From the NCBI RefSeq assembly GCF_030973515.1, contig NZ_JARGZA010000006.1, forward strand, positions 1-64,000: DNA of 64,000 bases. The letters run 5' to 3'. The translations under genes were made by a program, and so were the position numbers. Shown piece after piece: positions 327 through 19,502 of the stretch (its first letter is position 1; the number at the start of each line of letters is the position of its first letter). The DNA comes from Jannaschia maritima (GTDB lineage: Bacteria > Pseudomonadota > Alphaproteobacteria > Rhodobacterales > Rhodobacteraceae). The notes beneath the pieces are model-generated. The model had not been told where the DNA came from and did not search any database. It saw nothing but the letters and a program-made list of their open reading frames with translations.

Positions 327-1225
327 TGCTTCCACGCTGCGCCGTCGTCGTTCCCATCCTCGCCGGAGCGGTCGTTCTCAGCCACGCAACTTTCGCCGGG
401 AGCAAGCCTCGAATGGCAACGCAAGACAGACCCATCGTCACGATCGAGGCTCGGGTCCTCGATTCGATGAACCGCTACCTCGACGTCAACGAACTCGACG
501 GGCGGGAGGTCATGACGGGGCTGAACCGGCGCCAGCGGGTGAACGACCCCGAGCATCCCGACGCCTTCATGGAGTTCGTCGTCGCGCCCGCCGATGACGG
601 CGAGACGAGCCACCCGAGCGGCATCGTGCTGAGCTACGACCACCCCGATTGTCCCTTGCTGATCCCCCCTGGCCGACAGCTTTCCCTGACCCACATCGGG
701 CTGTTCATCGATAAGGTCGCCATGACCTTCCCGCTCGAACCGATGACCTGGGACGAGATGCAGGGGGAGTATCGAAGGGTGGTGGCCCAACTTGACCAAG
801 CGGGCTGGGTCCGCAGTTCGGGTCGGCACACCCCCTCGCAAGGGGTGAAGGAGGACATCACCTACGACGACTTCCTCGACAAGACCGGACCCAAATGGGC
901 GGGCGTCGGGTTCTGGGAGCAATGCGACAACCCGGCGATCAAGGCGGAATTCCAGATCAAACACTACAACGGCACCTCGCCCGGGTCGTTCATGCCGCCC
1001 GCCGCATTGTCGGAGCCGCTCGATCCCGGGGCGGAGGACACGTTCCTGTTCCACATCAGCATTGCGGCCGACTACCGAAGCCCCGTCGAGCGCGAGCTGA
1101 CCCGCCTCCGCGATGCCCGCCGGGCCGAGGTCAACGGCCGGACCGACGCGGAGATCCCGCTCTCCGTCTGGCTGGACGACCCCGACTGGCGCCCCGAGGA
1201 CTGGGACGGCATCTACGTCCCCTGA
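326..1225 (+). CDS. Hypothetical exported protein, 299 aa
   Basis: The start is ATG at 326, overlapping the stop of the upstream gene. The frame is open further upstream but there it runs inside the neighbour. Residues 1-24 form a plausible Sec signal peptide (a short basic start, a hydrophobic stretch of V, I, L and A, then a cleavage-like SHATFA-G). The mature part is hydrophilic and mixed alpha/beta, ends in a Trp/Asp-rich tail, and has no repeat or transmembrane helix. I do not recognise a family. Overlap with the preceding gene suggests a two-gene unit of linked function. Confidence 0.6.
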   Translation: MLPRCAVVVPILAGAVVLSHATFAGSKPRMATQDRPIVTIEARVLDSMNRYLDVNELDGREVMTGLNRRQRVNDPEHPDAFMEFVVAPADDGETSHPSGIVLSYDHPDCPLLIPPGRQLSLTHIGLFIDKVAMTFPLEPMTWDEMQGEYRRVVAQLDQAGWVRSSGRHTPSQGVKEDITYDDFLDKTGPKWAGVGFWEQCDNPAIKAEFQIKHYNGTSPGSFMPPAALSEPLDPGAEDTFLFHISIAADYRSPVERELTRLRDARRAEVNGRTDAEIPLSVWLDDPDWRPEDWDGIYVP

Positions 1226-1300: not shown

Positions 1301-1530
1301 CCGGCGCGCGGCGCCCCCCGCCGGATCTGGCCGGGTGACCTCGCAGCGTCGCGGATGGGACGCCAGCGGATGCACGGTCGGCGAAGCGCCGGATGCCGCG
1401 AACGGGGCCACCGCAAGACGGTCTGGGCACTGGCCGGGGCCATGCCGAATCACCGTGGCCGGTTCGCTCCTGCACGGAACGCCGGGGCGTTGCATACCGC
1501 ACGCACGCAACACCCCCCGATGTGCCCCTC

Positions 1531-1575
1531 CGTATGCACGGGGGGTGTACGGGGGGTGTACGGGGGGTGCATGCG
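1531..1575 (+). repeat. 45-bp dispersed element with three 11-bp TGTACGGGGGG units, copy 1
   Basis: Three consecutive 11-base units occupy 1535-1567; the first has TGCAC instead of TGTAC. They are bounded by CGTATG on the left and TGCATGCG on the right. The reverse complement of 32623-32667 matches all 45 bases with one difference. Similarity continues left of the core: both copies have a C6 run some 20 bases away that can pair with a G6 run, and a GCACGGAAC motif further out. The rest of 1226-1585 holds no convincing gene; hemH ends at 1586. Confidence 0.75.
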
Positions 1576-1585: not shown

Positions 1586-2674
1586 CTATTCGGCGGCCTG
1601 CGCCACCGCCCGCCGCGGCTCGATCCAGCCCGACAGGTTCTCCACCGCGATGGCCGCGAGCGCATCCATGTGCGTGGCGTCGTCGTTCAGGCAGGGGATA
1701 TAGGTGAACCGCTCGCCGCCCGCCTCCTCGAAGCTCTCCTTGATCTCCTCGTTGATCTCCTCGAGCGTCTCGATGCAGTCGGCGCTGAACGCAGGCGCGA
1801 TCACGGCGATGTTCCTCTTGCCCTCCTCCTCCGCCAGGCGGGCGACCTCCTCGACGGTATAGGGCTTCAGCCATTCCTCCGGGCCGAACTTGGACTGGAA
1901 CGTCGTCACGATCCGCGTCTCGTCCCAGCCCAGCCGCTCGCGCAGCAGGCGCGTCGTCTTCTGGCACTGGCAGTGATACGGATCCCCCTCCAGCAGGTAC
2001 CGCCTGGGCACCCCGTGATAGGAGCAGACAAGGATATCTGGCTTCGGATCCAACGACTTGTACGCCCGCTCGACCGACCGGGCCAGGGCCTCGACGTACC
2101 GCGCGTCGTCCGAATAGGCGGGGACCGTGCGCACCGACGGCTGCCATTTCATCTTCATCAGCACGCGGAAGAACTGGTCGCAGGCCGTGGCCGAGGTGGC
2201 CCCCGCATATTGCGGATAGAGGGGGAAGAACACGATCCGGTCGCAGCCCGCGGCCTTCATCTGCTCGACCTTCGACCGGGTCGACGGGTTGCCGTACCGC
2301 ATGGCGTAGTCGACCACCACGTCGTCCCCGAACATCGTCCGCATCCGCGCCGCCATCTCGGCGGTCTGGGCCTTCGTGATGGTCGCCAGGGGGGATTCGC
2401 CCTGCGCCTCGTTCCAGATCGACTTGTACGCCGATCCCGACGAGAACGGCCGCTTCGTCAGGATGATGCCCTGCAACAGGGGCTGCCACAGCCAGGGGGA
2501 GTAATCGATCACCCGCCGGTCCGACAGGAACTCGTTCAGGTAGCGGCGCATCGAGCGGTAGTCGTAGCCGTCCGGCGTGCCCAGGTTCGCCAGCAGCAGG
2601 CCGATCCGGCCCATGCGCAGGTTGGGATGGTCGCGCGGCGCGTGCGGCAATGGCGTGAACTCGTCGTGCTTCAT
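1586..2674 (-). CDS. hemH: Ferrochelatase HemH
   Basis: This enzyme inserts Fe(II) into protoporphyrin IX, the last step of protoheme synthesis, at the cytoplasmic membrane face. The 362-residue product has the family landmarks: LLANLGTPDG near residue 27, FFPLYPQYAGAT at 149-160, CSYHGVPRRY with the metal-binding His at about 220, and the conserved Glu in SADCIETLEEINEE near 302. Length is normal. The gene begins two bases after the stop of the upstream NDUFAF5-like methyltransferase, so the pair is an operon read leftwards. Confidence 0.96.
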   Translation of the reverse strand: MKHDEFTPLPHAPRDHPNLRMGRIGLLLANLGTPDGYDYRSMRRYLNEFLSDRRVIDYSPWLWQPLLQGIILTKRPFSSGSAYKSIWNEAQGESPLATITKAQTAEMAARMRTMFGDDVVVDYAMRYGNPSTRSKVEQMKAAGCDRIVFFPLYPQYAGATSATACDQFFRVLMKMKWQPSVRTVPAYSDDARYVEALARSVERAYKSLDPKPDILVCSYHGVPRRYLLEGDPYHCQCQKTTRLLRERLGWDETRIVTTFQSKFGPEEWLKPYTVEEVARLAEEEGKRNIAVIAPAFSADCIETLEEINEEIKESFEEAGGERFTYIPCLNDDATHMDALAAIAVENLSGWIEPRRAVAQAAE

Positions 2675-2676
2675 CT

Positions 2677-3483
2677 CTATCCCCGTCGTTCCTGCGTCCC
2701 CAGCGCGTCCGCCAGCCGGGTCGTCGCCGATCCGGGCCGCAGCGCCTTCGGCTGCGTCTCCGACGGCGCCCAGCCGGTCAGGAACACGGTCTGGAACGTT
2801 GCCCGGACCCCGTCCCCGTCGGCATAAGCGTCGTCATAGAGCCTGGCCGCCCGCGCGAACAGGTCGCGTGGCACCGTGCCGCGATGGCGGGCGGCCAGGG
2901 CGTTGGTCTCGCCCATGGCGCGCAGGTCGCAGATCAGATGGAACAGGTCGCGGTACCGCACCGTCTGGTCCGTCACGTCCGCCACCGGCAGGGCCAGGCC
3001 CGCACGCTGCAGCAGGGCGCCCAGGTCGCGCACCTCGCCCATGGGGGCCACGCGGGGGGACAGGCCGCCCGCGACCTCCACCTCCGCCTGCCCGAGGGCG
3101 GCGCGCAGCTCGGCCAAGGTGTCCCCGCCCAGGCAGCAGGCCAGCAGCAACCCGTCGGGGCGAAGCGCGCGGCGGCACTGCACCAGTTGCCCCACCGGGT
3201 CGTCCGCCCAGTGGAGCGCCATGAAGTGGACCACCAAGTCGTGCGCGCCGACCCCCAGCGCCAGCACGTCGTCGTCCGGCACGACGGTCGCGCCGGGCAG
3301 CACGGTGGTGGCGCGGTCCGGGAAGCCGGTCACCAGGGCCGGATCCGTAAACGATCTGTTAACGTCCCGCAGCCTTTCGCCCACCTCCGCGGCTGCGGCA
3401 TCGTGCAGGAACCACGCATCGTCCATCGCCCGCGCGCGGGCGCGGTGGTGGATCAGAGCGGTGCGGTCGGTCAAAGGGGCCAT
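2677..3483 (-). CDS. SAM-dependent methyltransferase-fold protein, NDUFAF5/BioC-like
   Basis: The protein (268 aa from ATG 3483) resembles the NDUFAF5 group: an HFMALHWADDPVG segment, then RRALRPDGLLLACCLGGDTLAELR, as in the complex I assembly factor. In mitochondria NDUFAF5 hydroxylates an arginine of a complex I subunit; the bacterial role is not established. The glycine-rich SAM loop near residues 50-75 is weak here. A longer start at 3510 would overlap the divergent comF gene, so 3483 is preferred. It is co-transcribed with hemH. A biotin-type O-methyltransferase is the alternative. Confidence 0.75.
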   Translation of the reverse strand: MAPLTDRTALIHHRARARAMDDAWFLHDAAAAEVGERLRDVNRSFTDPALVTGFPDRATTVLPGATVVPDDDVLALGVGAHDLVVHFMALHWADDPVGQLVQCRRALRPDGLLLACCLGGDTLAELRAALGQAEVEVAGGLSPRVAPMGEVRDLGALLQRAGLALPVADVTDQTVRYRDLFHLICDLRAMGETNALAARHRGTVPRDLFARAARLYDDAYADGDGVRATFQTVFLTGWAPSETQPKALRPGSATTRLADALGTQERRG

Positions 3484-3499
3484 CCGCCGGAGGTAGGCG

Positions 3500-4261
3500 A
3501 TGACGCACACGATTCAAAGCCTGTCCCGCCTGGCCTGGCGCGGCGCGGTCGACGCGCTCTATCCCCATGCCTGCGCGACCTGCGACGCGGCGGTGACCGA
3601 ACCGGGCCTGTGCCCCGCCTGCTGGCGCGACATGCCGTTCGGGCGCGGCGACGTCTGCCCCGTCTGCGCCACCCCGCAGGCGGGGGCCATCGACGGCCCC
3701 TGCGACGCCTGCCGCGCATCGCCCCCGCCCTGGGACGACGGCGTCGCGGCCCTGCGCTACGAAGGCGCGGGGCGGGGCTTCGCGCTGGCGTTGAAGCACG
3801 CCGACCGCACCCGTCATGCGCCACTGGCCGCGGACTGGCTGGCCCGGCGGCTGCGGGGCACGGCCGGGCCCGGCACGCTGGTCGTGCCCGTGCCGCTGCA
3901 CCCCCTGCGCCTGCTGACCCGCCGCTACAACCAGTCGGCCGAGATCGGGCGCCACCTCGCCCGCCTGTGCGGGGCGGACCACGCGCCCCGGACCCTGGTC
4001 CGCACGCGCCGCACCGCGCCGCAGGACCACCGCACCCGCGCCGACCGCTTCGCCAACCAGGCCGGGGCCTTCCGGGCGGCGGTGGGGGTGGAAGGGCGCC
4101 ACGTGGTCCTGGTCGACGACGTGATGGCGTCGGGCGCCACGATGCACCACTGCGCCTTGGCGCTCCGCCAGGCGGGCGCCACGCGCATCACGGTCGCCGC
4201 GCTGGCCCGCGTTGCGTCGGACCGGGCCGGGGCTATAACCTCCCCACATCCAACCAGCTGA
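3500..4261 (+). CDS. comF: ComF family phosphoribosyltransferase-like protein
   Basis: ComF proteins combine zinc-ribbon modules with a type I phosphoribosyltransferase fold and assist DNA uptake or recombination at the cytoplasmic side. Four CxxC pairs lie at residues 25/28, 38/41, 53/56 and 68/71. The RRYNQSAEIG segment and the PRPP loop VVLVDDVMASGATM (about 207-220) are characteristic. The length (253 aa) is standard. It is divergent from the methyltransferase gene with a 16-base gap, and grxC follows 11 bases downstream. Confidence 0.9.
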   Translation: MTHTIQSLSRLAWRGAVDALYPHACATCDAAVTEPGLCPACWRDMPFGRGDVCPVCATPQAGAIDGPCDACRASPPPWDDGVAALRYEGAGRGFALALKHADRTRHAPLAADWLARRLRGTAGPGTLVVPVPLHPLRLLTRRYNQSAEIGRHLARLCGADHAPRTLVRTRRTAPQDHRTRADRFANQAGAFRAAVGVEGRHVVLVDDVMASGATMHHCALALRQAGATRITVAALARVASDRAGAITSPHPTS

Positions 4262-4272
4262 AGGGCACCGCG

Positions 4273-4530
4273 ATGAAGCCGGTCACGATCTACACGCAGC
4301 CCTTGTGCGGGTTCTGCACCGCCGCCCTGCGCCTGCTGTCCCAGAAGGGTGCCCCCGTGACCGAGATCGACGTCGCCGCCACCCCCGGCGCGCGCGGCGA
4401 GATGGTGCAGAAGGCCGGCGGCGCGCGCACCACGCCGCAGATCTTCGTGGGCGACACCCATGTCGGCGGCTGCGACGACCTTTATGCCCTCGACCGCGCG
4501 GGCAAGCTGGATCCGCTGCTGGCGGCGTGA
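4273..4530 (+). CDS. grxC: Glutaredoxin 3
   Basis: An 85-residue class I glutaredoxin that reduces disulfides and glutathionylated proteins with GSH in the cytoplasm. The active site is CGFC at residues 12-15 (usually CPYC, so the proline is replaced by glycine). The cis-Pro loop is TTPQIFVG (about 53-60) and the GSH-binding segment is GGCDDL. ATG at 4273 lies 11 bases after comF, preceded by AAGGG. The comF-grxC order is common in Rhodobacteraceae. Confidence 0.93.
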   Translation: MKPVTIYTQPLCGFCTAALRLLSQKGAPVTEIDVAATPGARGEMVQKAGGARTTPQIFVGDTHVGGCDDLYALDRAGKLDPLLAA

Positions 4531-4537
4531 CCCCGGT

Positions 4538-4987
4538 TTGACCGCCCCCGACGAGGAAGGCCTAGCGGTCGCACTCTTCTCCGAGATGCTGACGGCGGAC
4601 CACCTGGCCCGCGCGCGCCTGTCCCGCGCCTTGCCCAAGGGCATGGAGCTCAGCCACTTCGTGCTGCTGAACTACCTGGCCCAGCACCCGGAGGAACGGA
4701 CCCCGGCCGAACTGGCGCGGCTGTTCCACCTGACCCGCGGGGCCATGACGAACACGCTGAACCGCCTGCAATGGGCGGGCCACGTCCACATCCGCCCCGA
4801 CTGGGAGGACGCGCGCCGCAAGCGGGTGGCGATCAGTCCCGCGGGCCAAGCCGCGCGCGAGGCCGCGCTGGCGGCGATCCGCCCCATCATGACCCAGGCC
4901 GTCCACGACATCGGCGCGGCCCGCACCCGCGCCGCGATCCCCGTGCTGCGCGCCTTGCGGGAGCGGTTCGCGGGGGGCGAGGGCTAG
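4538..4987 (+). CDS. MarR family transcriptional regulator
   Basis: This is a winged-helix dimeric regulator. The core LARLFHLTRGAMTNTLNRLQWAGHVHI followed by DWEDARRKRVAISPAG is the MarR recognition helix and wing. No ATG gives a full-length N-terminal helix without entering grxC: the TTG at 4538, eight bases after the grxC stop, gives 149 residues, normal for the family, whereas ATG 4586 would remove the first helix. The ligand is unknown. Proximity to grxC makes an oxidative or electrophile stress role possible, but that is inference. Confidence 0.85.
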   Translation: MTAPDEEGLAVALFSEMLTADHLARARLSRALPKGMELSHFVLLNYLAQHPEERTPAELARLFHLTRGAMTNTLNRLQWAGHVHIRPDWEDARRKRVAISPAGQAAREAALAAIRPIMTQAVHDIGAARTRAAIPVLRALRERFAGGEG

Positions 4988-5006
4988 GGCCGCGCCGCCC
5001 GACCCG

Positions 5007-5711
5007 TCAGTCCCGCCGCCGCACCATCAACTGCGCGCCGTCCTTTCGCGTCTCCAGCCGCTTGATGTCGCTGACCAGTTCGCTGAGCTTTCGCTTGCCA
5101 TAGGTCCGGGTGTCGAAATCCGGCGCCTCCGCCATGATCTGGCTGCCCAGCGCGCCCAGCGAATGCCAGTCGTCGTCCTGCTGGTCCATCCGATCCATGG
5201 CGCGGATGATCAGCGGCAGCGCGTCCTGCGGCTTGCGCTTGTCGGTGCCCCCGCGTTCGGCCGGCTCGTCGATCAGGTTCTCGATCAGGATGAAGCGGTT
5301 GCACACGTTGCGCAGCGATTCGGGGGCCTTGCCCTCGCCGATGCCCACGACCTCCAGCCCGTCCTCACGGATGCGGCTGGCCAGGCGCGTGAAATCGCTG
5401 TCGCTGCTGACCAACACGAAGCCGTCGAACCGGTCCTGGTGCAGGATGTCCATGGCATCGATCACCAGCCCGATGTCGCTGGCGTTCTTGCCCTTCGTGT
5501 TCGCCGTCTCCTGATGGGCCACCAACCCGAGCGCGTGGACCTTGTCGGCCCATTGCTTCAGGCGGTCGGACGACCAGTCGCCGTACACGCGGCGCAGGCC
5601 CGGCTCGCCCAGGCCCGTGATCTCCTTCAGGATGGCCTCCGCGAACTTGGCGGGGATGTTGTCGGCGTCAATCAGGACGGCCAGCAGGGGACGGTCGCGG
5701 CGGTTGGGCAT
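5007..5711 (-). CDS. NYN (PIN-like) RNase-fold protein with C-terminal OST-HTH/LOTUS domain
   Basis: Residues 8-150 form a NYN domain: LLAVLIDADNIP (first acidic cluster), KNASDIGLVIDAMDIL, and FVLVSSDSDFTRLASRIREDG. The aspartates are those expected to bind metal in PIN-like nucleases. A C-terminal region (about 165-230) with SLGALGSQI and RTYGKRKLSELV looks like the OST-HTH (LOTUS) RNA-binding module. The start at 5711 is chosen for a GGAG about nine bases upstream; the longer frame to 5768 has a proline-rich, non-conserved extension. It lies 60 bases downstream of the DHH phosphoesterase gene on the same strand. Confidence 0.88.
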   Translation of the reverse strand: MPNRRDRPLLAVLIDADNIPAKFAEAILKEITGLGEPGLRRVYGDWSSDRLKQWADKVHALGLVAHQETANTKGKNASDIGLVIDAMDILHQDRFDGFVLVSSDSDFTRLASRIREDGLEVVGIGEGKAPESLRNVCNRFILIENLIDEPAERGGTDKRKPQDALPLIIRAMDRMDQQDDDWHSLGALGSQIMAEAPDFDTRTYGKRKLSELVSDIKRLETRKDGAQLMVRRRD

Positions 5712-5771
5712 CGTGGGCTCCGGCAGGGTGTCCCCTCCCCCTACCGGCGGGGGCGGGGATCGTTCCACCCC

Positions 5772-6797
5772 TCAGGCCCGCATTTCGGGTCCGAAGCCCA
5801 GATCGTTCATCAGCGCGTTCCACGGCTCGTGCTCCAGCGTGCCGCCCGCGGCCTGCCGGTGGCCGTTGCCGTAATGCGCCGGATCGGCCCCGACGGGCCT
5901 GTGGCGGGCCAGCAGGTCGACGATGTCCCGGTCCTTCGGCGCGCGACCCGAGAACGAGACGCGGCCCGGCAGGTATCCGAAGTTGGCGCAGAACACGATC
6001 GCCCCGCGCAGGCGGCCGACCCAGGACTGCGCCGTCAGGGGGTGGACCTGGCAGGGGCTGTCGATCCGCACGATCGCCACGTCCGAGCCGTACCGCGAAC
6101 CGAAGCGCGGCGGCGCGCGGCGAGCCGCCGCGGTGGCGGCCTTCACCTCCTCGCGCGCGGCCTCGCACTCCGCCAGGCCGGGCAGATCGCCGGACAGGGC
6201 GTGGGCCGGGTCTTCGGCGGCCCGCAGCAGGGCCAGGGCGGGCGACGCGTCCCCCGACGCGGCCCGACGCGGTGCGTTCACCAGCGAGGTCAGCTCGCGC
6301 AGGCGACCCGCGCCCCACCGCTTCTTGGCGGGCGCGACCTCCAGATGGCCGCCCTTGTCGCCGTAATCCCCCATGCAGCCCAGCGCGGCCAGCCAGCCCC
6401 GGTCCTCCGGCGCGCCCAAGGCGTACCATGCCAGCAGCGACGTGGACGGCACCGGGTCCAGCGCCTCGCCGTGGATCACGGTCGCGCCTTCGGGCGTGCC
6501 CGTCGGCACGTGGTGGTCGATCACGCACAGACGCCGACCCAGCGTCCGCCCGCGCATCCCCAAATCCGCCACGATCACCGCCTCCTCGGCGACCTCCGCC
6601 GCGACGGGATCGGTCCACGCATTCGCCCCCCGCCCCACCAAGCGCACCGGCCGGCCCAGGGCATCGGCCAGCAGGGCGGCCGACGACAATCCGTCGGCGT
6701 CCACGTCCGACAGGATCCGGTCCGGCGGACCATCGGCCAGGAAGGCGTCCAGGCGGGTCCGGGCGTCGGCGGCGAAGGCGGGGTGCGTGATCTCCAT
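5772..6797 (-). CDS. DHH family phosphoesterase
   Basis: The 341-residue protein has the N-terminal DHH motifs SDVDADGLSSAALL (about 29-42) and CVIDHHVPTG, and a C-terminal DHHA1-like YGNGHRQAAGG (GGGHxxAxG class) near residue 315. Such proteins hydrolyse phosphodiesters of nanoRNA, single-stranded DNA or cyclic dinucleotides with two Mn ions. RecJ itself is far longer, so this is a short DHH-DHHA1 relative of unknown substrate. The ATG at 6797 is 84 bases from the divergent uvsE start. Confidence 0.88.
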   Translation of the reverse strand: MEITHPAFAADARTRLDAFLADGPPDRILSDVDADGLSSAALLADALGRPVRLVGRGANAWTDPVAAEVAEEAVIVADLGMRGRTLGRRLCVIDHHVPTGTPEGATVIHGEALDPVPSTSLLAWYALGAPEDRGWLAALGCMGDYGDKGGHLEVAPAKKRWGAGRLRELTSLVNAPRRAASGDASPALALLRAAEDPAHALSGDLPGLAECEAAREEVKAATAAARRAPPRFGSRYGSDVAIVRIDSPCQVHPLTAQSWVGRLRGAIVFCANFGYLPGRVSFSGRAPKDRDIVDLLARHRPVGADPAHYGNGHRQAAGGTLEHEPWNALMNDLGFGPEMRA

Positions 6798-6881
6798 GCG
6801 GGGGCAACCGGCGACGTCGCGCGACGTTCCGTCCGCGCCGTTGGTGGGAACGAAACCACCCCCGTCGGCCGTTGCCCCGGT

Positions 6882-7895
6882 ATGACCACGCCCGACACAT
6901 CCCCCCTGCGCCTGGGCTTCCCCGTCAAGGTCACGGCGCGCCCCGACCTGAAGTCCAACGACACGCGCCGCTGGAAGAACGACCCGCACCTGTCGGTGTC
7001 GCTCGACTACATGGACGCGATCCTGGACCACTGCGCCGCGCGGGGCATCCGCATGTACCGCATGTCGTCGGACCTGGCCCCCTATGCCACCCATCCCGAC
7101 ATGCCGCAGTTCCATTCCATGGTGGAGGACAGCGCCGACCGCCTGGCCGAGATCGGGGCGAAGGCGCGGGCGCTGGACGTGCGGCTGTCGTTCCACCCGT
7201 CCCAGTTCGTGCTGCTGAACGCCCCCGATCCGGACCTGGTGGCGAAGTCCGTCAAGGACCTGGCGTCGCAGGCGCGGATGCTGGACCTGATGGGGTGCGG
7301 CCCGGAATCGGTCCTGGTGACGCATGTGGGTGGCGTCTACGACGACAAGACCGCCGCCCGCGAACGGTGGTGTGCCGCGTGGGACGGTCTGCCCCCTCAC
7401 GTCCGCCGACGACTGGTGCTGGAGAACGACGACCTGCGCTTCTCCGCGACCGACACGCTGTGGATCAGCGAGCGGACCGGCGTGTCGCTGATCTTCGACC
7501 ACCAGCACTGGTGGTGCCTGCATGAGCCGGAGGAGGATCTGATCCCCACCTTCGCCGCCTGCCTGGCGACCTGGGCCGACGGCGTGCGGCCCAAGATGCA
7601 CTTCTCGTCGCCCCGGACTGAGATGCGCACCATCACGCGCAAGGACCGCAAGACCGGCAAGCCGGTCGTCACGACCGCGCCTCCGATCTGGACGGGGCAT
7701 GCCGACTACATCCAGCCGTTCGAGTTCATCCGTTTCATGCGCGACGCCGAGGATCTGACCTTCGACGTGATGCTGGAGGCCAAGATGAAGGACGCCGCCC
7801 TGGAACGCCTGCGGCTGGACCTGGCCCGCTACGCCCCCGACGTAGCGGCGCGGTTCGGGTTGGAGTCGGCGGAGGCGCGGGTGGCGGCGGAGTAG
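6882..7895 (+). CDS. uvsE: UV DNA damage endonuclease UvsE/UvdE
   Basis: A TIM-barrel, metal-dependent endonuclease that nicks DNA 5' of cyclobutane dimers, 6-4 photoproducts and abasic sites. The sequence follows the family closely: LGFPVKVTARPDLKSNDTRR at the start, GIRMYRMSSDLAPY, LSFHPSQFVLLN, LENDD, IFDHQHWW and KMHFSSPRTEMR, containing the His/Glu/Asp metal ligands. Length (337 aa) is typical. It is divergent from the DHH phosphoesterase gene, and only one base separates its stop from that of the convergent formaldehyde dehydrogenase gene. Confidence 0.95.
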   Translation: MTTPDTSPLRLGFPVKVTARPDLKSNDTRRWKNDPHLSVSLDYMDAILDHCAARGIRMYRMSSDLAPYATHPDMPQFHSMVEDSADRLAEIGAKARALDVRLSFHPSQFVLLNAPDPDLVAKSVKDLASQARMLDLMGCGPESVLVTHVGGVYDDKTAARERWCAAWDGLPPHVRRRLVLENDDLRFSATDTLWISERTGVSLIFDHQHWWCLHEPEEDLIPTFAACLATWADGVRPKMHFSSPRTEMRTITRKDRKTGKPVVTTAPPIWTGHADYIQPFEFIRFMRDAEDLTFDVMLEAKMKDAALERLRLDLARYAPDVAARFGLESAEARVAAE

Positions 7896-7896
7896 G

Positions 7897-9009
<1,113 letters not shown>

Positions 9010-9103
9010 GGTGATGTCCTCCCGGTTGTGGGGAAGGGGTGCCCGCGAGGGTTCGGGATTGCAAGGGTCGGGACGCCTCGGCGCCGGGCGGGGGCGGAGC
9101 GCG

Positions 9104-10246
9104 CTAGAGGCAGTCGTGGAACAGGGCTTCGGTGTTCTCCGCCGTCATCGCCCGCGGGTTGCCGCCCACGGACGGATCGCGCAACGCCATCTCCGCGAGT
9201 TCGGGGATGCGGTCCCCCCGCACCCCCATCGCGGCCAGACCCTTGGGAATCCCGAAGCGGTCGTTCAGCGATGCGACCGTATCGACGAACCCGTCGAACC
9301 CGCCCGCGATGCCCAGATAGGCGGCTGCGCGTTCGATCCGCCCCTCCACCTCCGCCCGGTTGAAGCGCAGGACCGGCACCATGACGGCGGCGTTCGTCGT
9401 GCCGTGATGGGTGCCGTAGACCGCGCCGACCGGGTGGCTGACCGCGTGGATCGCGCCCAGACCCTTCTGGAACGCCACGGCCCCCATGGTGGCGGCCGAC
9501 ATCATGTCGCCACGGGCGTCCAGGTCGGACCCGTCCTCGTAAACGCGCGGCAGGGCGTCCAGGACCAGCCGCATCCCTTCCAGCGCGATACCCTGAGACA
9601 TGGGGTGGTAATGGGGCGAGCAATACGCCTCCAGGCAGTGGGCGAAGGCGTCCATGCCGGTGCCCGCCGTGATGGCGCGTGGCATCGACACGGTCAGTTC
9701 GGGGTCGAGGATCGACGTGGCCGGCAGCAGCTTGGGGTGGAAGATGATCTTCTTCTCGTGCGTGCGGCTGTTGGTCAGCACGCTCGCACGCCCGACCTCC
9801 GACCCCGTGCCCGCCGTCGTGGGCACCGCGACGATGGGGGCGATGGCGTCGGCATCGGCGCGGGTCCACCAGTCTCCCACGTCCTCGAAGTCCCAGACGG
9901 GTCGGTCCTGTCCCGGCATCATCGCGACCAGCTTGCCCAGATCCAGGCCGGACCCGCCGCCGAAGGCCACGATCCCGTCGTGGCCGCCCGCGCGCCATGC
10001 CTCCACCCCGTCGGCCAGGTTGCCCTCGTGCGGGTTGGGGTCGACGCCGGCGAACATCGCCCAGCCCAGCCCGGCGTCGTCCAGCACGTCCAGCGCCGTC
10101 TGCGTCACGGGCAGGTCCGCCAACCCCCGGTCCGTGACCAGCAAGGGCCGCGTCATGCCCGCCGCGCGGCAGGCCTCGCCCAGCTCCGCGATGCGGCCGG
10201 CGCCGAAGCGGACGTTCGTGGGATAGCTCCAGGTCGCGGTCGTCAC
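9104..10246 (-). CDS. Iron-containing (group III) alcohol dehydrogenase
   Basis: The 380-residue protein begins at GTG 10246, five bases after the stop of the upstream aldehyde dehydrogenase and preceded by AAGGG. Family marks are [10 protein letters not shown] (NAD loop), TTAGTGSEV, and metal ligands in [14 protein letters not shown] and [18 protein letters not shown]. It interconverts a primary or amino alcohol and its aldehyde with NAD(P). As the third gene of a glutamine-synthetase-like/aldehyde dehydrogenase/alcohol dehydrogenase operon, it may oxidise a gamma-glutamylated amino alcohol; that substrate is inferred. Confidence 0.92.
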
Positions 10247-10251
10247 GGGGA

Positions 10252-11634
10252 TCAACCCTTCTTCAGGTGGAACGACTTGGGCTGCGTCAGCGCGTGGAAG
10301 CCCAGCACCGACAGGGACGCGCCGCGGCCCGTGTCCTTGCGCCCCGTCCAGCACAGCCCCGGGTCCAGGTAGTCCGCCCGGTTCATGAACACCGTGCCCG
10401 TGTCCAGCCGCCCCCCGATGCGCGCCGCACGGTCGGCGTCGCGCGTCCACAGCGAGGCGGTCAGGCCATAGGCGCTGTCGTTCATCAGACGGACCGCCTC
10501 GTCGTCGTCGTCCACGGGCATGATGCCGACGACGGGGCCGAAGTTCTCTTCCCGCATCAGGTCCATGTCGTGGGTCACGTCGGTCACGATCTGCGGGGCC
10601 ACGTACTGCCCCGCACCGTCGTCGGCGGGGAACAGGGCGGGATCCACATGCGTCCTGGCCCCCATCGAGACGGCCTGAGCCACCTGGTCGCGCACGCCCT
10701 TCGCCACGGACGCGTTGGCGACGGGACCCATCGTGGTCCCCTCCTCCATCGGGTCGCCCAGGACATAGGCGCGGGCCAGATCGGCGGCCTTGGCGACGAA
10801 GGCGTCGTAATGCGGACGGGCCACGTAGATGCGTTCGATCCCGCAGCAGCACTGCCCGGAATTGTATATCGCCGCGTCGATCAGGGTGGCGGCCGCCGCA
10901 TTCAGATCCGCGTCGTCCATGACATAGCCCGGATCCTTGCCGCCCAGTTCCAGCCCCGTGCCGGTGAAGGTGCCCGCCGCCGCCCGTTCGATGGCACGGC
11001 CGCCCCGGACCGAACCGGTGAAGTTCACGAAGTCGAACGACCCGGCCGCGATCGCGGCCTCCGTCCCGTCGTGGTCCAGGTAGAGGACCGGCATCAGGTC
11101 GGCGGGCAGGCCGCCCGCGACGAAGGCCGCGGCCATGCGCTCGCCCGTCAGCAGCGTCTGGGTCGCGGGCTTCACCGCCACCGCGTTGCCCGCTATCAAC
11201 GCGGGCACGATCACGTTGGTGGACGTCAGATAGGGATAGTTCCAGGGCGCGATCACGAAGACGATCCCGTGGGGGTCGCGCACGATGCGCCGCTCGAACC
11301 GATCGGATTCCTCGACGACGTGCGGCGCCAGGGCCGTCGCCGCGATCTCCGCGCAATAGTCGGCCCGTTCGCGCACGCCCCCGAACTCGCCGCCGTAGCG
11401 GGTCGGACGGCCCATCATGCGGGCCAGCTCCGGCACCGCCTCCGCGTCGGCGCACAGCACGTCGACGCCCGCCATGACGACCGCGATCCGTTCCTCCAGC
11501 GGGCGGGCGGCCCATTCGGCCTGCGCGGCGCGCGCGCGGGCCAGCAGGTCGGCGATCCGGTCCGCGTCCATGACGTCGCGTTCCGCCACCACCGATCCGT
11601 CGATGGGCGAGATACAGGTCAGCATTCGGGTCAT
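10252..11634 (-). CDS. NAD(P)-dependent aldehyde dehydrogenase
   Basis: A 460-residue aldehyde dehydrogenase. It has the APWNYPYLTSTNV cofactor segment, FTGSVRGGRAI, the general base Glu in GLELGGKDPGYV, and the catalytic Cys in NSGQCCCGIERIYV, where three cysteines are adjacent. ATG at 11634 overlaps the stop of the glutamine-synthetase-like gene (ATGA), so expression is coupled. The enzyme should oxidise the aldehyde made by the iron alcohol dehydrogenase next in the operon to an acid. Substrate specificity cannot be read from sequence. Confidence 0.93.
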   Translation of the reverse strand: MTRMLTCISPIDGSVVAERDVMDADRIADLLARARAAQAEWAARPLEERIAVVMAGVDVLCADAEAVPELARMMGRPTRYGGEFGGVRERADYCAEIAATALAPHVVEESDRFERRIVRDPHGIVFVIAPWNYPYLTSTNVIVPALIAGNAVAVKPATQTLLTGERMAAAFVAGGLPADLMPVLYLDHDGTEAAIAAGSFDFVNFTGSVRGGRAIERAAAGTFTGTGLELGGKDPGYVMDDADLNAAAATLIDAAIYNSGQCCCGIERIYVARPHYDAFVAKAADLARAYVLGDPMEEGTTMGPVANASVAKGVRDQVAQAVSMGARTHVDPALFPADDGAGQYVAPQIVTDVTHDMDLMREENFGPVVGIMPVDDDDEAVRLMNDSAYGLTASLWTRDADRAARIGGRLDTGTVFMNRADYLDPGLCWTGRKDTGRGASLSVLGFHALTQPKSFHLKKG

Positions 11635-12995
11635 CCCCCTTCGAACAGGCGCCGACGTTCCACGTCCGTGACGCGGGTGTCGGACACCCGCTGCTCCCAC
11701 CGTGCGGCGTGCAGGTAATGGTCGACCACGGCATCCCCCATCGCGGCCCGCAGCGCCGTGGAGGCATCGGCGGCCGCGACCGCGTCGCGCAACGTGCCGG
11801 GGATCTCCCGCGCGGCCCCGTCGCCATAGGCGTCGCCGGTGAAGGCGGGTTCCAGATCGAGGTCGCGATCCAAACCGTCCAGCCCGGCGGCGATCTGCGC
11901 GGCCAGCGCCAGATAGGGATTCAGGTCCGACCCGCCCACGCGGCATTCGACGCGCACGGCCTTCGTTCCCTCGCCCACGACGCGGTAGCCCGCGGTGCGG
12001 TTATCCATCGACCAACAGATCTTCGTGGGCGCGAAGGTGCCCGCCGCGAAGCGCTTGTAGCTGTTGACGTTGGGCGCCAGGAACAGCGTCGTCGCCTCGG
12101 CGTGCTCCAATAGGCCCGCCACGTAGGATCGCATCGCCGTCGACATGCCGTGCTCCGCGTCCGGGTCGTGGAACAGGGGGGTGCCGTCCCGCCACAGCGA
12201 TTGGTGGACATGGCTGGACGATCCCGCGCTGCCGTCGTGCCATTTCGCCATGAAGGTGACGGCCGTGCCCGCCCCGTGCGCCATCTCCTTCACGCCGTTC
12301 TTCAGGATCGCGTGGCGGTCGGCCATCGTCAGCGCGTCGGCATAGCGGACGTTGACCTCCGCCTGGCCGGCGCTGGCCTCGCCCTTGGTGTTCTCGACCG
12401 GGATGCCCGCGCCCGACAGGCCGTTGCGGATGGCCCGCATCAGGGGCTCGGTCTTGGTCGTCTGGAAGATGTGGTAGTCTTCGTTGTAGTCGCTGGCCAA
12501 TCGGCCCGTCGGGTATCCGTCGGCGGCCAGGGACCGGAAGTCGCGGTCGAAGACGAAGAACTCCAACTCGGTCGCGCACATCGCGGTCAGCCCGCGCTCG
12601 GCCAAGCGTTCGACCTGCCGCTTCAGCACGGCGCGGGGCGAATGGGGCACGGGCGCATGGGTCGCGTGGTCGATCACGTCACACAGGACCAGGGCCGTGG
12701 CGGGAAGCCAGGGCACCCGGCGCAGCGTGTCCAGATCCGGCACCATCGTGTAGTCGCCATAGCCCGACGCCCAGGACGTCGAGGCGTATCCTTCGACGGT
12801 GTGCATCTCCATGTCGGTGGCGAGCAGGTAGTTGCAGGAATGCGTTTCCTCCAACGCGCCGTCCAGGAAGAAGGGCGCGTGGAACCGCTTGCCCATCAGC
12901 CGGCCCTGCATGTCCACCTGCACGGCCAGCACGGTGTCGATCGTTCCATCGGCGACGGCGGCGCGCAGGTCTTCCAATGTCATCGGTGCAGCCAT
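11631..12995 (-). CDS. Glutamine synthetase family protein, probable gamma-glutamyl-amine ligase
   Basis: The 454-residue protein has the glutamine synthetase beta-grasp and catalytic domains: ELEFFVFDRD, NEDYHIFQTTKTEP, GQAEVNVRYAD, the ATP-site SSSHVHQSLW, and RVECRVGGSDLNPYLA near the C-terminus. The adenylylation loop of housekeeping GlnA is absent. In PuuA, IpuC and GlnA4-type enzymes this fold joins glutamate to amines. The operon continues with aldehyde and alcohol dehydrogenases, which suits a gamma-glutamylation pathway. ATG 12995 is preceded by AGAGG. The exact amine is unknown. Confidence 0.88.
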   Translation of the reverse strand: MAAPMTLEDLRAAVADGTIDTVLAVQVDMQGRLMGKRFHAPFFLDGALEETHSCNYLLATDMEMHTVEGYASTSWASGYGDYTMVPDLDTLRRVPWLPATALVLCDVIDHATHAPVPHSPRAVLKRQVERLAERGLTAMCATELEFFVFDRDFRSLAADGYPTGRLASDYNEDYHIFQTTKTEPLMRAIRNGLSGAGIPVENTKGEASAGQAEVNVRYADALTMADRHAILKNGVKEMAHGAGTAVTFMAKWHDGSAGSSSHVHQSLWRDGTPLFHDPDAEHGMSTAMRSYVAGLLEHAEATTLFLAPNVNSYKRFAAGTFAPTKICWSMDNRTAGYRVVGEGTKAVRVECRVGGSDLNPYLALAAQIAAGLDGLDRDLDLEPAFTGDAYGDGAAREIPGTLRDAVAAADASTALRAAMGDAVVDHYLHAARWEQRVSDTRVTDVERRRLFEGG

Positions 12996-13084
12996 GTGCC
13001 AACCTCTACACCCGCCCGGGGCGGTGGCAATGGGCCGTGTCCTGGTGCAGGGTCCGCTTCGGAACGGCCGACCCGGAGGATCCG
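12996..13084. promoter_or_regulatory. Divergent promoter region between the GS-like operon and the ThDP enzyme
   Basis: The 89-base gap must hold the promoters of both divergent units. A clear ribosome-binding site, GGAGG, precedes the ThDP enzyme start at 13085. No strong palindrome or convincing -35/-10 pair stands out by eye, and no dedicated regulator gene is adjacent. Confidence 0.4.
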
Positions 13085-14713
13085 ATGACGCATGGCGGCG
13101 CGCTGCTGGTACGATGTCTGGAGGCGCAGGGCGTGGATCGCGCCTTCTGCATTCCGGGCGAAAGCTTCCTGGCGGTGCTGGACGGCTTGCACGATTCCCC
13201 CATCGACCTGATCGTCGCCCGCCAGGAAGGCGGGGCCGCCATGATGGCGGAGGCGACGGGCAAGCTGACGGGGCGGCCCGGCATTGCCTTCGTCACGCGG
13301 GGCCCCGGCGCCACGAACGCCAGCGCGGGCGTCCACGTGGCGTTCCAGGACAGCACGCCCATGATCCTGTTCGTAGGCGACGTCGCATCCGACCAGCGCG
13401 ACCGGGAGGCGTTCCAGGAAGTCGATTACGGCGCCATGTTCGGTCCCCTGGCCAAGTGGGTGGCGCGCATCGACAGGGCCGACCGCATCCCCGAATACGT
13501 CAGCCGTGCCTTCCACGTCGCGCAGTCCGGCCGCCCCGGCCCCGTCGTCCTGGCCCTGCCGGAGGACATGCTGTCGGGCCCCGCGGACGGCACCCCCGTC
13601 CCCGCCGCCACCCTGCCGTCCGGCAAGGCGGCGGACGACGACGTCGCCGCGATCGTGGACTGGCTGGCGGGCGCGGAACGGCCCTTCGTGCTGATCGGCG
13701 GGGGCGGCTGGGACGCGGCTGCCGGCCGGGCGATCGGCGATCTCGCGGAAGCCATGGACCTGCCCGTGGGCGCGTCGTTCCGGTGCCAGGATTACATCGA
13801 CAACCGGCATCCCTGCTACGCGGGCGACGTGGGCATCGGTCCGAACCCCGCCTTGGCCGACCGCGTGCGCGGGGCGGACGTCCTCCTGGCCCTGGGGCCC
13901 CGGCTGGGCGAGATGACGACCTCGGGCTACACGCTGCCCGTCCCCCCCGTTCCCGCGCAATCGCTGATCCACGTCCACCCGGACCCGTCCGAGCTGGGCC
14001 GCGTCTATCGTCCCGACCTCGCCGTCGCCGCCCGCCCCGGCGCGGTGGCGGCGCAGCTGGCCCGAGCGGCGCGGACCAGGACGGGCGACCGTGCGGCACG
14101 CGCGCATGCCGACTACGAAACGTGGCAGACCCCGGAAGAAACGCCGGGCGCGGTGAAGATGGAACGCGTGATCGCGCATCTGAACGACGTCCTGCCCGAC
14201 GACGCGGTGGTCACGAACGGGGCGGGCAACTACGCGTCCTGGCTGCACCGCTACTATCGCTACCGCGGGTGGCGCACGCAGCTGGCCCCCACCAGCGGGT
14301 CCATGGGCTATGGCCTGCCCGCCGCGGTCGCGGCCAAGCTGCACGACCCGTCCCGCGACGTGGTCTGCCTGGCGGGCGACGGCTGCTTCCAGATGGTGTC
14401 GCAGGAATTCGCGACCGCCGTTCAGTACGGGGCGGCGATCGTCGTGCTGGTCTGCGACAACGCCCGCTACGGCACGATCCGGATGCATCAGCACCGCGCC
14501 TATCCGGGCCGCGTGTCGGGAACGGAGATGGTCAATCCCAACTTCGCGGCCCTGGCCCGCGCCTATGGCGGGTTCGGCGCCACGGTCGCGACGGATGCGG
14601 ATCTTCCGGCGGCCTTCGCCCGGGCGCGGGGCAGCGGGGTGCCCGCCATCGTGCACCTGATCCTGGATCCGGCCGCGCTGTCGCCCAGGCTGACGCTGCC
14701 AGCGGACGCCTGA
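13085..14713 (+). CDS. Thiamine diphosphate-dependent enzyme, acetolactate synthase large-subunit-like
   Basis: A 542-residue ThDP enzyme with the usual three domains: N-terminal Pyr domain with the activating Glu in IVARQEGGAAMMAEATGK, a central domain with ALGPRLGEM, and a C-terminal PP domain with LAGDGCFQM (Mg/ThDP motif GDG...). IlvB would normally be followed by ilvH and this is not, so it is probably a catabolic or unassigned carboligase/decarboxylase. It is transcribed away from the GS-like operon and shares its control region, which suggests that it uses a product of that pathway. ATG 13085 follows GGAGG. Confidence 0.85.
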   Translation: MTHGGALLVRCLEAQGVDRAFCIPGESFLAVLDGLHDSPIDLIVARQEGGAAMMAEATGKLTGRPGIAFVTRGPGATNASAGVHVAFQDSTPMILFVGDVASDQRDREAFQEVDYGAMFGPLAKWVARIDRADRIPEYVSRAFHVAQSGRPGPVVLALPEDMLSGPADGTPVPAATLPSGKAADDDVAAIVDWLAGAERPFVLIGGGGWDAAAGRAIGDLAEAMDLPVGASFRCQDYIDNRHPCYAGDVGIGPNPALADRVRGADVLLALGPRLGEMTTSGYTLPVPPVPAQSLIHVHPDPSELGRVYRPDLAVAARPGAVAAQLARAARTRTGDRAARAHADYETWQTPEETPGAVKMERVIAHLNDVLPDDAVVTNGAGNYASWLHRYYRYRGWRTQLAPTSGSMGYGLPAAVAAKLHDPSRDVVCLAGDGCFQMVSQEFATAVQYGAAIVVLVCDNARYGTIRMHQHRAYPGRVSGTEMVNPNFAALARAYGGFGATVATDADLPAAFARARGSGVPAIVHLILDPAALSPRLTLPADA

Positions 14714-14773
14714 ACACCGAGCGGCACGCCATGAAGGCCATCCGCGTGCCGCTCGGGCGTACCCCGACGGGTC

Positions 14774-15388
14774 CTAGCCGGAGACCCGCGCCTCCACGCT
14801 GTAGCGATCCTTGATGGCGCTGTAATCGCCGAGCGACTGGACGAAGTTCCGCAGCAGCGCCCCATAGAAGATCAGTTCGCTCTGAACCGCCTCGGCCGGG
14901 GACCCGTCCTCGATCATGGCCATCATGGTACGGCACAAATCGATCAGCGCGCGCGCCTCCACGACCTCGCGCGGATCCCGCCAAGCATCCGGATCGGACC
15001 CGCCGCCCAGCAGGACCTGGGGATCGCCGACGAGGAACCGGAACCGGATCCGCGCCGAAAGGCCCCCGCCGTCATGCGACTGCACCGCGACGCACAGCCC
15101 CCCCAGCAATGCACCCCCCAGATCCACCACGGCCCCCGGGTCGGCATGCCGTCCACCGCCGCGACGGGCCGCGGCCAGCCATTCGGGCACGCGTGCCGCC
15201 AGGACGGGGGGCAGGGAATCGCCTAGGGGCATCGGATCGACATGGCTCAGCCGGTGGTGGAACCCTGGCTGGATCACGTCGACCTCCGCCAGGCGCGGGT
15301 CGGGCCACAGGCCCTGGCGCAGCACGTGCAGGACCACCATGTCCGCCGCCGTCCGCATCGCCGGGATGCAGGATGCGCGCACGCCCAT
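14774..15388 (-). CDS. Hypothetical protein, 204 aa (second gene of a pair)
   Basis: The start at ATG 15388 lies two bases after the stop of the upstream gene, so the two form an operon; the frame is open to 15502 but that part overlaps the neighbour. The protein has a His/Pro-rich region (PGFHHRLSHVDPMP), a short Gly/Leu-rich segment (GGALLGGLCVAV) and an alpha-helical C-terminus. No membrane helix or signal peptide is clear, and I do not recognise a family. It ends 60 bases from the convergent ThDP enzyme gene. Confidence 0.6.
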   Translation of the reverse strand: MGVRASCIPAMRTAADMVVLHVLRQGLWPDPRLAEVDVIQPGFHHRLSHVDPMPLGDSLPPVLAARVPEWLAAARRGGGRHADPGAVVDLGGALLGGLCVAVQSHDGGGLSARIRFRFLVGDPQVLLGGGSDPDAWRDPREVVEARALIDLCRTMMAMIEDGSPAEAVQSELIFYGALLRNFVQSLGDYSAIKDRYSVEARVSG

Positions 15389-15390
15389 CG

Positions 15391-16011
15391 TCAGGCCGCG
15401 TCGTGCAGGGCCGCGGGCGCGATCGCATCCGCGCGGCTGACATAGCGGTCCAGCAACCCCAGGCGCAGGCGCATCGCCTCGATCCGATCCTGCAGCGCGC
15501 ACTCGATGCCGTGCAGTCGCGCATCGTCCGTCAACCCGCCCTGCGCACGGGCCTGAACCACGGCCGTGGCGTCCGAGAAGGTGCGCCCGAGCGAGTCGAT
15601 CGCGATGTCCATCAGCGTCGAGCGCAACCCTTCTGCCGACGATCGCAGCAAGGGGCGGACGTCGCCCTCCTCCACGTCGAACCGAACCGTGACGTGACTG
15701 TCCGGACCGTCCACGGCCACGGTGACGCGGGCGGGGCCCAGCGCCACCAGCCCCAACGTGAAATCCGATTCCACCGCGATGCTTCCGTCCCGCGACGGGT
15801 CCACGGAGGCCAGGACCGCTCGGACATGCTCCGCGAGCCTGACGTCCATGACCCCGTTCAGATCGCTCGCGATGCGCGGCTGCACCATGTGCACGGACCG
15901 TGCCTCCGTGACTTGGACATAGTCGACGCAGGGGTTCGCGCCGTCGGCGTCGAACGTCAGTCCGACCTCGAAGAAAGCCGTTACGTCAATATGATAGGTC
16001 ATGCTCGTCAC
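15391..16011 (-). CDS. Hypothetical protein with possible FliK-C-like segment, 206 aa
   Basis: The start is ATG 16011 (or 16002, three codons later). The region around residues 85-145 (LGPARVTVAVDG, then VTVRFDVEEGDVRPLLRSS) has the alternating strands and the helix with a leucine pair seen in FliK/YscP C-terminal domains. Those set hook or needle length, but no flagellar or type III secretion genes are in the window. The similarity is judged by eye and is weak. A coiled segment (DRIEAMRLRLGLLDRYV) follows. It is first in a two-gene operon. Confidence 0.55.
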   Translation of the reverse strand: MTSMTYHIDVTAFFEVGLTFDADGANPCVDYVQVTEARSVHMVQPRIASDLNGVMDVRLAEHVRAVLASVDPSRDGSIAVESDFTLGLVALGPARVTVAVDGPDSHVTVRFDVEEGDVRPLLRSSAEGLRSTLMDIAIDSLGRTFSDATAVVQARAQGGLTDDARLHGIECALQDRIEAMRLRLGLLDRYVSRADAIAPAALHDAA

Positions 16012-16129
16012 TCCCCGCTATACCCAATGCCTCCCCTGCGCCCGAAACCTTAACAACCCGTTAAGTCCATGGCCCGAGACATGGCGGTCCGGTTCGATCG
16101 GCGGATCGCCGCCCCCGATCGGGACGGGT

Positions 16130-17770: not shown

Positions 17771-17901
17771 GGCGGGACATCCTTCGGGGGAAGCCTAGCC
17801 CGCTACGCCCCCGGCGCCGGGAAGTATAGGGGCGGCGGCGCCTTTTCGGGTCTTGGCAAACGCCGCCCCGCGTCCCACGCTTCCCCCGCAGGGAGGGCGC
17901 G

Positions 17902-18627
17902 ATGAACCGATACGACTACGAAGGCCGCCGCGCGGTCGTCACGGGCGGCTGCAACGGCATTGGGGCCGCGGTCGCGGAGCGCATGGCCGCGTCGGGGGCG
18001 CGCGTGACCCTGTGGGACCTGGACCCCGACGCCCCCGAACCCCGCGTGGCCGACCTGAACGCCATCGCCTGCGACGTGGCCGACATGGCCAGCGTCCGGG
18101 CCGCGATGGACCGGACAGGCCCCGTCGACGTGCTGGTCAACAGCGCGGGCATCGCGGGACCGACCCATTCGCTGCTGGACTATCCCCTGGACGACTGGGC
18201 CCGCATCCAGCGCGTCAACGTCGATGGCACGCTGCATTGCTGCAAGGCGGTCCTGCCCGGCATGACCGCGAACGGATACGGCCGCATCGTCAACGTCGCC
18301 TCCATCGCGGGAAAGGAGGGCAACCCGATGGCATCGGCCTATTCCGCATCGAAGGCCGCCGTGATCGCCCTGACGAAGTCCCTGGGCAAGGAGATGGCGG
18401 AAACGGGCGACATCGCGGTGAACTGCGTGACGCCGGCCACCGCGCAGACCCGCATCCTGGAACAGGTTTCGGCCGAGTTCACCGAGTACATGCGCTCCAA
18501 GATCCCGCGTGGCCGCTTCGTGACGGTGGACGAGATCGCGTCGATGATCCTGTGGGTCGCATCCGCGGAGAACAGCTTCACCACCGGGTTCGCCTTCGAC
18601 CTGTCGGGCGGGCGGGCGACCTATTGA
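17902..18627 (+). CDS. SDR family NAD(P)-dependent oxidoreductase
   Basis: A classical 241-residue short-chain dehydrogenase: TGGCNGIGAAVAERM (cofactor loop), VNSAGIAG, catalytic Ser in NVASIAGKEGNP and YSASKAAVIALTK (Tyr/Lys). It keeps the C-terminal FDLSGGRATY end. It is preceded by GGGAGGG and followed 17 bases later by a second SDR gene, so they form an operon. The family includes sugar-acid and 2-keto-3-deoxy-sugar-acid dehydrogenases; substrate is not readable from sequence. Confidence 0.88.
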   Translation: MNRYDYEGRRAVVTGGCNGIGAAVAERMAASGARVTLWDLDPDAPEPRVADLNAIACDVADMASVRAAMDRTGPVDVLVNSAGIAGPTHSLLDYPLDDWARIQRVNVDGTLHCCKAVLPGMTANGYGRIVNVASIAGKEGNPMASAYSASKAAVIALTKSLGKEMAETGDIAVNCVTPATAQTRILEQVSAEFTEYMRSKIPRGRFVTVDEIASMILWVASAENSFTTGFAFDLSGGRATY

Positions 18628-18644
18628 TCCGGGAAGGACACGAC

Positions 18645-19373: not shown

Positions 19374-19481
19374 CGCGCCGCGCGGCGCCGCCCCGCCCGG
19401 CCCCGCGCTCGGATCGATGGATCGGGGACGTTCCCCCGCCCCCGGCGGGATGGGGGGCAGGCATCGGCGGGAAATCGCGCC

Positions 19482-19502
19482 CCGGACGGTTCAGCCGTCC
19501 GG
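19482..19502 (-). terminator. Hairpin spanning the lytic transglycosylase stop codon
   Basis: CCGGACGG (19482-19489) and CCGTCCGG (19495-19502) pair perfectly around a 5-base loop that contains the TGA stop of the minus-strand gene. The position between convergent genes suits a terminator, but there is no run of U after the stem on the minus strand, so strength is uncertain. Confidence 0.35.

Follow-up and report, generated by a model that had tools for sequence, protein, structure and literature searches.

The genome of Jannaschia maritima (the host) carries short arrays of 11-bp direct repeats dispersed between its genes, and in related species arrays of the same period stand at many of the same places, in the same orientation, with differently spelled repeat units. 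The period, the dispersal, the existence of several such spellings, which we call dialects, and the conservation of place and orientation across dialects are established observations. Arrays in three dialects also anchor a one-sided domain of altered base composition, and the fourth dialect contributes one match to this pattern. The explanation we prefer, with a probability of roughly 40%, is that the arrays act in cis as polar sites recognised in DNA processing of a recombination or DNA-exchange type.

Two of these arrays, here termed G-type, lie in the window, i.e. the whole stretch of 64,000 nt that was analysed (C42:1–64000 of the host genome, G000, which comprises 3.67 Mb in 45 contigs). 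A preliminary description had placed the two 45-bp copies on opposite strands, with three 11-bp units each and a one-base difference, outside of genes and flanked by common outer motifs. All of these points were confirmed: the copies occupy convergent gaps (1226–1585 and 32446–32864), and GCACGGAAC together with a C6 run adjoins both (Table 1). Copy 1 lies 15 bp beyond the 3′ end of hemH, and copy 2 is flanked by a dctM-like gene and by one whose family is unknown; gene calls throughout come from a home-made caller, and neighbouring genes were named by NCBIfam models, with the dctM-like gene scoring below the cut-off of its model. In the same window, TGTACGGGGGG with at most one mismatch occurs seven times against 1.5 expected, a number reached by none of 100 shuffles, and a scan at lags 7–19, requiring 24 or more matches in 33 positions, detected arrays in intergenic DNA solely at lag 11, namely the two G-type copies and one further array termed K-type, with one coding hit apiece at lags 12 and 15. 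This third 11-bp array, overlooked in the preliminary description, sits on the minus strand in a convergent gap after an L-serine ammonia-lyase gene.

Table 1. Arrays, adjoining blocks and the rising-skew stretch in the 64,000-nt window
Feature	Position	Strand	Description
G-type array copy 1	1531-1575	+	CGTATG(YACGGGGGGTG)3CATGCG
Copy 1 units	1535-1545, 1546-1556, 1557-1567	+	11 bp each
G-type array copy 2	32623-32667	-	units 32653-32663, 32642-32652, 32631-32641
K-type array	22653-22709 (lag-scan extent 22644-22709)	-	six 11-bp units, AC in phase, GCAGACGCNNC + diverged units
Host-type A-block upstream of copy 1	1472-1519	+	GCACGGAAC + C6 run
Upstream block of copy 2	32670-32735	-	C6 runs + GCACGGAAC
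Rising cumulative GC skew stretch	21612-51603	none	skew minimum 21612, later maximum 51603

Across the host genome, 70 places match CGTATGYACRGGGGGTGYACRGGGGG within two mismatches (43 on the plus and 27 on the minus strand; 0 for the reversed-pattern control), a G-type density of about one array per 50 kb. With this number of places in the host, and with counterparts in relatives, the scenario of just two copies lacking any counterpart elsewhere, raised in the preliminary description, fails, and the notion of a dispersed repeat family resembling a protein-binding site gains support. Among 67 host loci, which were chosen as array-bearing, a scan over lags 6–25 returned 57 intergenic arrays with the 11-bp period, as opposed to 4 for the remaining lags combined; in the same kind of scan of genome G010, runs of N gave false hits at all lags. 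The orientation of arrays along the chromosome showed no significant clustering (runs test, 0.75, 0.52 and 0.09).

The distribution of G-type arrays is patchy. Matches were found in 9 of 60 genomes, including the host and seven of its 19 congeners, with two weak matches in another genus, and in 6 of 394 genomes of the family (nearly one per genus, host counted). The named genome collection contained at least 96 G-type stretches; among the matches listed (80) were Nioella, Jannaschia, strain W635, and MAGs called Planktomarina, Cypionkella and Rhodobacteraceae. The viral contigs of that collection yielded one match, and plasmid and phage records had no match to a 101-base query, in a BLAST search whose low-complexity filter may mask G-runs. 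Rfam covariance models, run on 10 loci, did not match at the arrays. Their sole match was PYLIS_3 at 652–751 (minus strand) of locus L164, some 5 kb from the array (44 bits, gathering threshold 38), and is probably due to chance or to an mttB-like gene. No earlier account of these arrays was found in the open-licence literature.

A G-type array is built from CGTMTG followed by two to four units of YACRGGGGGTG. An upstream block consisting of a C-run and GCACGGAAC is found at many host copies, so that the homologous block of about 100 bp noted before holds for many of them, but not for all, and the corresponding gaps of G007 did not show it. Some host copies (L067, L075, L082, L069, L102) are part of tandem units of ~150–172 bp with three hairpin-forming blocks; at L102, two adjoining tandem units share an identical variable part. 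In genera other than Jannaschia, the 3′ part of many G-type copies is a C-run followed by a T-tract, with T at the tract in about half. A separate side observation concerns gaps of G007 (e.g. at L164, L165 and L149), where another dispersed repeat lies just 3′ of stop codons (AAATACCTCGGGG... GGCGGGGGCAGAGCCCCC).

The sequence of the unit is not constant. At the cysS–cimA gap (where the name cysS is our own assignment, made from the sequence), other Jannaschia species have a different 11-bp repeat. Aligned in one orientation, the four unit spellings by our reading are YACRG-GGGGTG (G), CRYRG-ATCACC (D), CACRG-CCRTAA (T) and CGCAG-ACGCNN (K), with a 5-bp half, YRYRG, common to all and a 6-bp half that differs and constitutes the dialect. 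The D-type pattern, allowing up to three mismatches, was detected in 11 of 20 Jannaschia genomes (control 0), with high counts in G010 (48), G014 (42), G005 (37), G001 (29), G004 (26) and G016 (11), lower ones in G003 (6), G018 (4), G015 (2), G009 (1) and G012 (1), and zero matches in G000, G007 and G013; beyond the genus it is rare (5 of 198 genomes, one or two matches each). A T-type array precedes lpd in G011 and G017, and the T-type pattern has 17 and 19 matches in these two genomes and none in the other 18 (control 0). For the K-type pattern, with 76 matches in the host versus 0–5 in each of 19 other species, these sister species serve as the comparison, since the unit is a mirror palindrome and the reversed control is therefore invalid.

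In a phylogeny built from cimA, hemH and lpd, G000, G007, G013 and G015 form a G-type-rich clade and G011 and G017 a T-type clade (support 1.0 for each), with D-type arrays across the remainder. The fit between dialect and tree is imperfect, in that G012 has seven G-type matches and G003 has one. Both D- and G-type matches occur in each of G005 and G001, possibly species between dialects and in transition, and at L411 (G012, before lpd) ATACG is repeated three times at 11-bp spacing, a possible fifth dialect.

These spellings bear directly on the idea of a G-quadruplex or another structure formed by G-runs. G-type arrays such as copies 1 and 2 do have three G6 runs with 5-base spacers, but D-type (GATCACCC) and T-type (TAACAC) arrays have no G6 runs, and arrays of both types occupy the same sites with the same composition domain. 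We consider a G-quadruplex function very improbable because same-gap D- and T-type arrays of sister species lack the runs, and the earlier suggestion of such a potential does not extend to a conserved function. The nearby C-run able to fold back on the G-runs fares similarly: it adjoins many host copies, lies on the other side in G007 and in non-Jannaschia genera, and is absent from the printed D- and T-type arrays.

Conservation of place was assessed on conserved gene adjacencies (reciprocal best hits) between array-bearing loci of different species. For pairs of G-type loci with gaps of at least 60 bp, both gaps carried an array in 28 cases, neither in 109 and only one in 2 (p = 5e-27), with similar figures at a 70-bp filter (28, 96 and 1) and without a size filter (28, 229 and 10). 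Orientation was equal in 27 of the 28 shared gaps, the exception lying in a convergent gap. Shared gaps include several among close Nioella species and ten between Jannaschia species, and they also cross genera (host and a Planktomarina MAG; Jannaschia Os4 and Nioella; Cypionkella and a Rhodobacteraceae MAG; Nioella and W635). The same holds across dialects. Comparing D-type with G-type loci, an array was present in both gaps in 11 cases, in neither in 66 and in one only in 6 (p = 6e-9; e.g. before lpd, L126 and L369), with equal orientation in 12 of 12 pairs. T-type gaps had a G- or D-type array in the same gap in 17 of 25 comparisons, always in equal orientation (17/17), and had no array in 8, although these 25 comparisons are not independent because G011 and G017 are closely related. 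All p-values of the place test are indicative, as loci were chosen for bearing arrays and pairs share loci. In the printed Jannaschia gaps, little besides the array appeared alike by eye between the genes.

At the same time, many arrays of one species found no partner in another, and the hemH gap of copy 1 has an array in the host only, among the 14 of 20 Jannaschia species parsed there. Variation in copy number between species, the dispersal, the patchy presence across genera and the tandem hairpin blocks at host copies would suit a mobile or selfish repeat (MITE- or REP-like) inserting between genes. Such an element, also proposed in the preliminary description, nevertheless appears improbable to us because place and orientation are conserved: the arrays of different species, of some different genera and of different dialects share gaps and orientations. 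The plasmid and phage records without a match to the 101-base query, and the single viral contig, point the same way.

Within the host, 66 of the 70 copies were placed between two called genes, with two overlapping called genes and two at contig ends. The placed copies fall into 24 convergent, 36 tandem and 6 divergent gaps, as compared with 56, 139 and 84 among all gaps of at least 100 bp at the same loci (array gaps included); at the tandem copies, the genes run with the direction of the array in 23 cases and against it in 13. Other neighbours of host arrays named by NCBIfam include lpd, glmS and citramalate synthase. The excess in convergent gaps and the scarcity in divergent ones would suit a transcription terminator or 3′-end element, by which the arrays would end or insulate the transcripts of neighbouring genes, and the C-run and T-tract at many non-Jannaschia G-type copies could form a hairpin. 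Against this, 19 of the 66 placed copies have no gene on the 5′ side that is directed toward the array, which is why we rate an intrinsic terminator low; same-gap D- and T-type arrays show no G-run/C-run hairpin, and a one-sided composition domain of ~10 kb is left unexplained. Overall, termination is a rather unlikely function.

Another candidate would be a transcription factor of the OmpR/PhoB kind whose specificity has changed between clades. OmpR-type regulators bind direct repeats one helical turn apart, so 11-bp direct repeats with a conserved half would suit such a protein, and conserved place and orientation would suit regulation. However, 24 of the 66 placed host copies have the end of a gene on either side and no gene start next to them, and a regulator of single genes leaves the composition domain unexplained; we regard this reading as unlikely.

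The orientation of the arrays also predicts local GC skew, as examined in pieces of 12–16 kb around the loci. In the frame of the array, C exceeds G on the top strand over a tract that starts at about +1 kb, includes the array and extends ~10 kb to the 5′ side; beyond about +1 kb on the 3′ side, skew is near zero. With both-strand loci excluded and only the first array per locus counted, the sign was as predicted at 60 of 67 loci in G000 (6 exceptions and one zero), 35 of 40 in G007 (5 exceptions), 12 of 13 in G013 (1), 18 of 19 in G014 (1), 17 of 19 in G010 (2) and 70 of 95 other G-type loci (25). With gene strand allowed for, the orientation term had |t| values of 5.5–11.8. The signal resides on the 5′ side, which alone gave the predicted sign at 37 of 40 loci in G007 and 19 of 19 in G014; the 3′ side alone did so at 24 and 10 of these loci, respectively. 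T-type arrays follow the same rule (predicted sign at 22 of 23 loci; mean skew −0.061 versus −0.010 beyond +1 kb).

When loci were pooled, skew stepped at +750 to +1250 bp, with change points at +950 in G007, +750 in G014, +1100 in G010, +925 in G013 (broad) and +1900 in G000; those of single loci scatter widely. The effect is clear out to 10 kb and was not detected at 10–20 kb (G007 and G014), and in these two genomes the DNA outside the domains is almost devoid of large-scale GC skew. Fourfold-degenerate sites show a skew difference of ~0.1–0.2 in genes of either direction, and intergenic DNA shifts in the same direction, more weakly and less evenly. AT skew did not change consistently at the domains, and no strand-biased oligomer within them stood far above base composition. 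GC content at fourfold sites was raised inside the domain at 136 of 178 loci (p = 4e-12; loci with more than 300 fourfold sites per side, for which 25 of the 96 other loci qualify), with the exception of G013, where the mean was slightly lower although 9 of 13 loci were higher (p = 0.11).

Inside the window, cumulative GC skew reaches its minimum at 21612, roughly 1 kb to the 3′ side of the K-type array, an array that was found by its period alone. Copy 2 sits within the rising stretch and departs from the rule, with a skew of +0.002 over 32.9–38.9 kb. On the 3′ side of copy 1, negative skew persists over 1600–20000 with no array found there; a decayed array may be located near 18–20 kb.

Composition alone cannot separate cause from effect, and the domains might have come first, with the arrays as passengers that settled or persisted at their 3′ edge. 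Species that lack the array at lpd also have negative skew on the 5′ side (−0.058), which would suit this order. Yet at lpd and cimA, the two orthologous loci compared, 5′-side skew over 1.15 kb is ~0.046 lower where the array is present (p = 0.03 and 0.016; 17 and 19 of 20 species parsed, respectively, the species not being independent), with no significant difference over the first 0.7 kb of the two genes (p = 0.145 and 0.08), and in three dialects that differ greatly in base composition the sign is set by the orientation of the array. We assign passenger status a low probability.

If the arrays are recognition sites for DNA processing, an oligomeric DNA-binding protein would touch the same face of the double helix once every turn, at each of three to six 11-bp units, which would account for the 11-bp period. 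This putative protein would read the common YRYRG half as well as the clade-specific 6-bp dialect half, and a change in its specificity would account for different dialects at fixed places. Once bound, it would set the place and direction of a strand-specific machine, whose tract would start (or stop) ~1 kb 3′ of the array and span ~10 kb on the 5′ side. The sign and shape of the skew would fit either a machine moving 5′-ward from about +1 kb or one arriving from the 5′ side and halting there. Because the leading strand usually carries an excess of G, the machine could be read as fork-like. The raised GC content in the tract hints at recombination with biased conversion. Molecular drive may allow such sites to spread and to be retained, as would suit the turnover of sequence at conserved places. 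On present data, the versions of this explanation look alike, be they recombination-dependent synthesis (Chi-like), uptake (DUS-like), packaging (pac-like) or other.

A bolder form of the same explanation, which we hold to be doubtful, would have DNA exchange start at tens of polar sites per chromosome, each marked by its dialect. A protein bound to the array would launch a one-way tract of ~10 kb, by recombination, uptake or packaging; the sites would spread by molecular drive, the dialect would pick the exchange partner, and the footprint of the tracts would override the usual origin-to-terminus GC skew. If this were true, the dialect would amount to a species-recognition code for DNA exchange. 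Should the array cause the domain, bacterial chromosomes would host an undescribed strand-specific process that sequence data suffice to locate. Maps of GC skew in this group may also need rereading, given that G007 and G014 have almost no large-scale skew beyond the domains. Sites that keep their place and direction while their sequence is rewritten genome-wide recall DNA-exchange codes such as the DUS dialects, and we know of no DNA-exchange code in which tandem direct repeats of 11 bp go together with a composition domain that reaches ~10 kb to one side.

Several known systems share part of these properties. Chi sites of RecBCD and AddAB are oriented and exert a one-sided effect over kilobases. 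They resemble the arrays in being oriented and in differing between bacteria, and the one-sided composition domain of ~10 kb may be a counterpart of their reach, but Chi is one short, frequent motif, in contrast to arrays of 11-bp units at about one per 50 kb (G-type, host). REP and BIME elements are likewise intergenic, near 3′ ends and sometimes tandem, and the upstream blocks of host arrays do contain hairpins; their core is palindromic, whereas here direct repeats change sequence at constant place and direction.

Cyanobacterial STRR are dispersed short direct repeats. The TAACTGA heptamers of Beggiatoaceae are also intergenic short direct repeats (PMC4679880). Both families resemble the arrays in being intergenic, patchy and made of two to several short direct repeats, at about 170 per genome in one case. 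The heptamers differ in having a period of 7 and in lying mostly just before start codons (PMC4679880). Neither family is known to us to have a series of dialects in the same gap or a composition domain. By our comparison, the TAACTGA heptamer is the nearest repeat.

Packaging from pac sites of a phage or gene transfer agent (GTA) would account both for the polarity of the start and for a tract measuring a few head lengths. The Rhodobacter capsulatus GTA is reported to begin packaging at no discrete site, with a TerS that shows no specificity in DNA binding (PMC7947584), which speaks against site-specific terminase binding. GTA-like packaging is accordingly kept, in our analysis, only as a sub-option of DNA processing at recognition sites.

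The DNA uptake sequences (DUS) of Neisseriaceae come in clade-specific dialects with a three-base core (PMC3630211). They resemble the arrays in having clade dialects around a short common core (here the YRYRG half), in lying between genes near gene ends, in being oriented motifs read by a protein (a putative one here) and, as may also hold for the arrays, in persisting by biased transfer. DUS differ in being single 10–12-mers in thousands of copies, often as inverted pairs, compared with tens of arrays of 11-bp direct repeats here (PMC3630211). As an idea, the DUS dialect nonetheless comes nearest, by our comparison, to what the arrays display.
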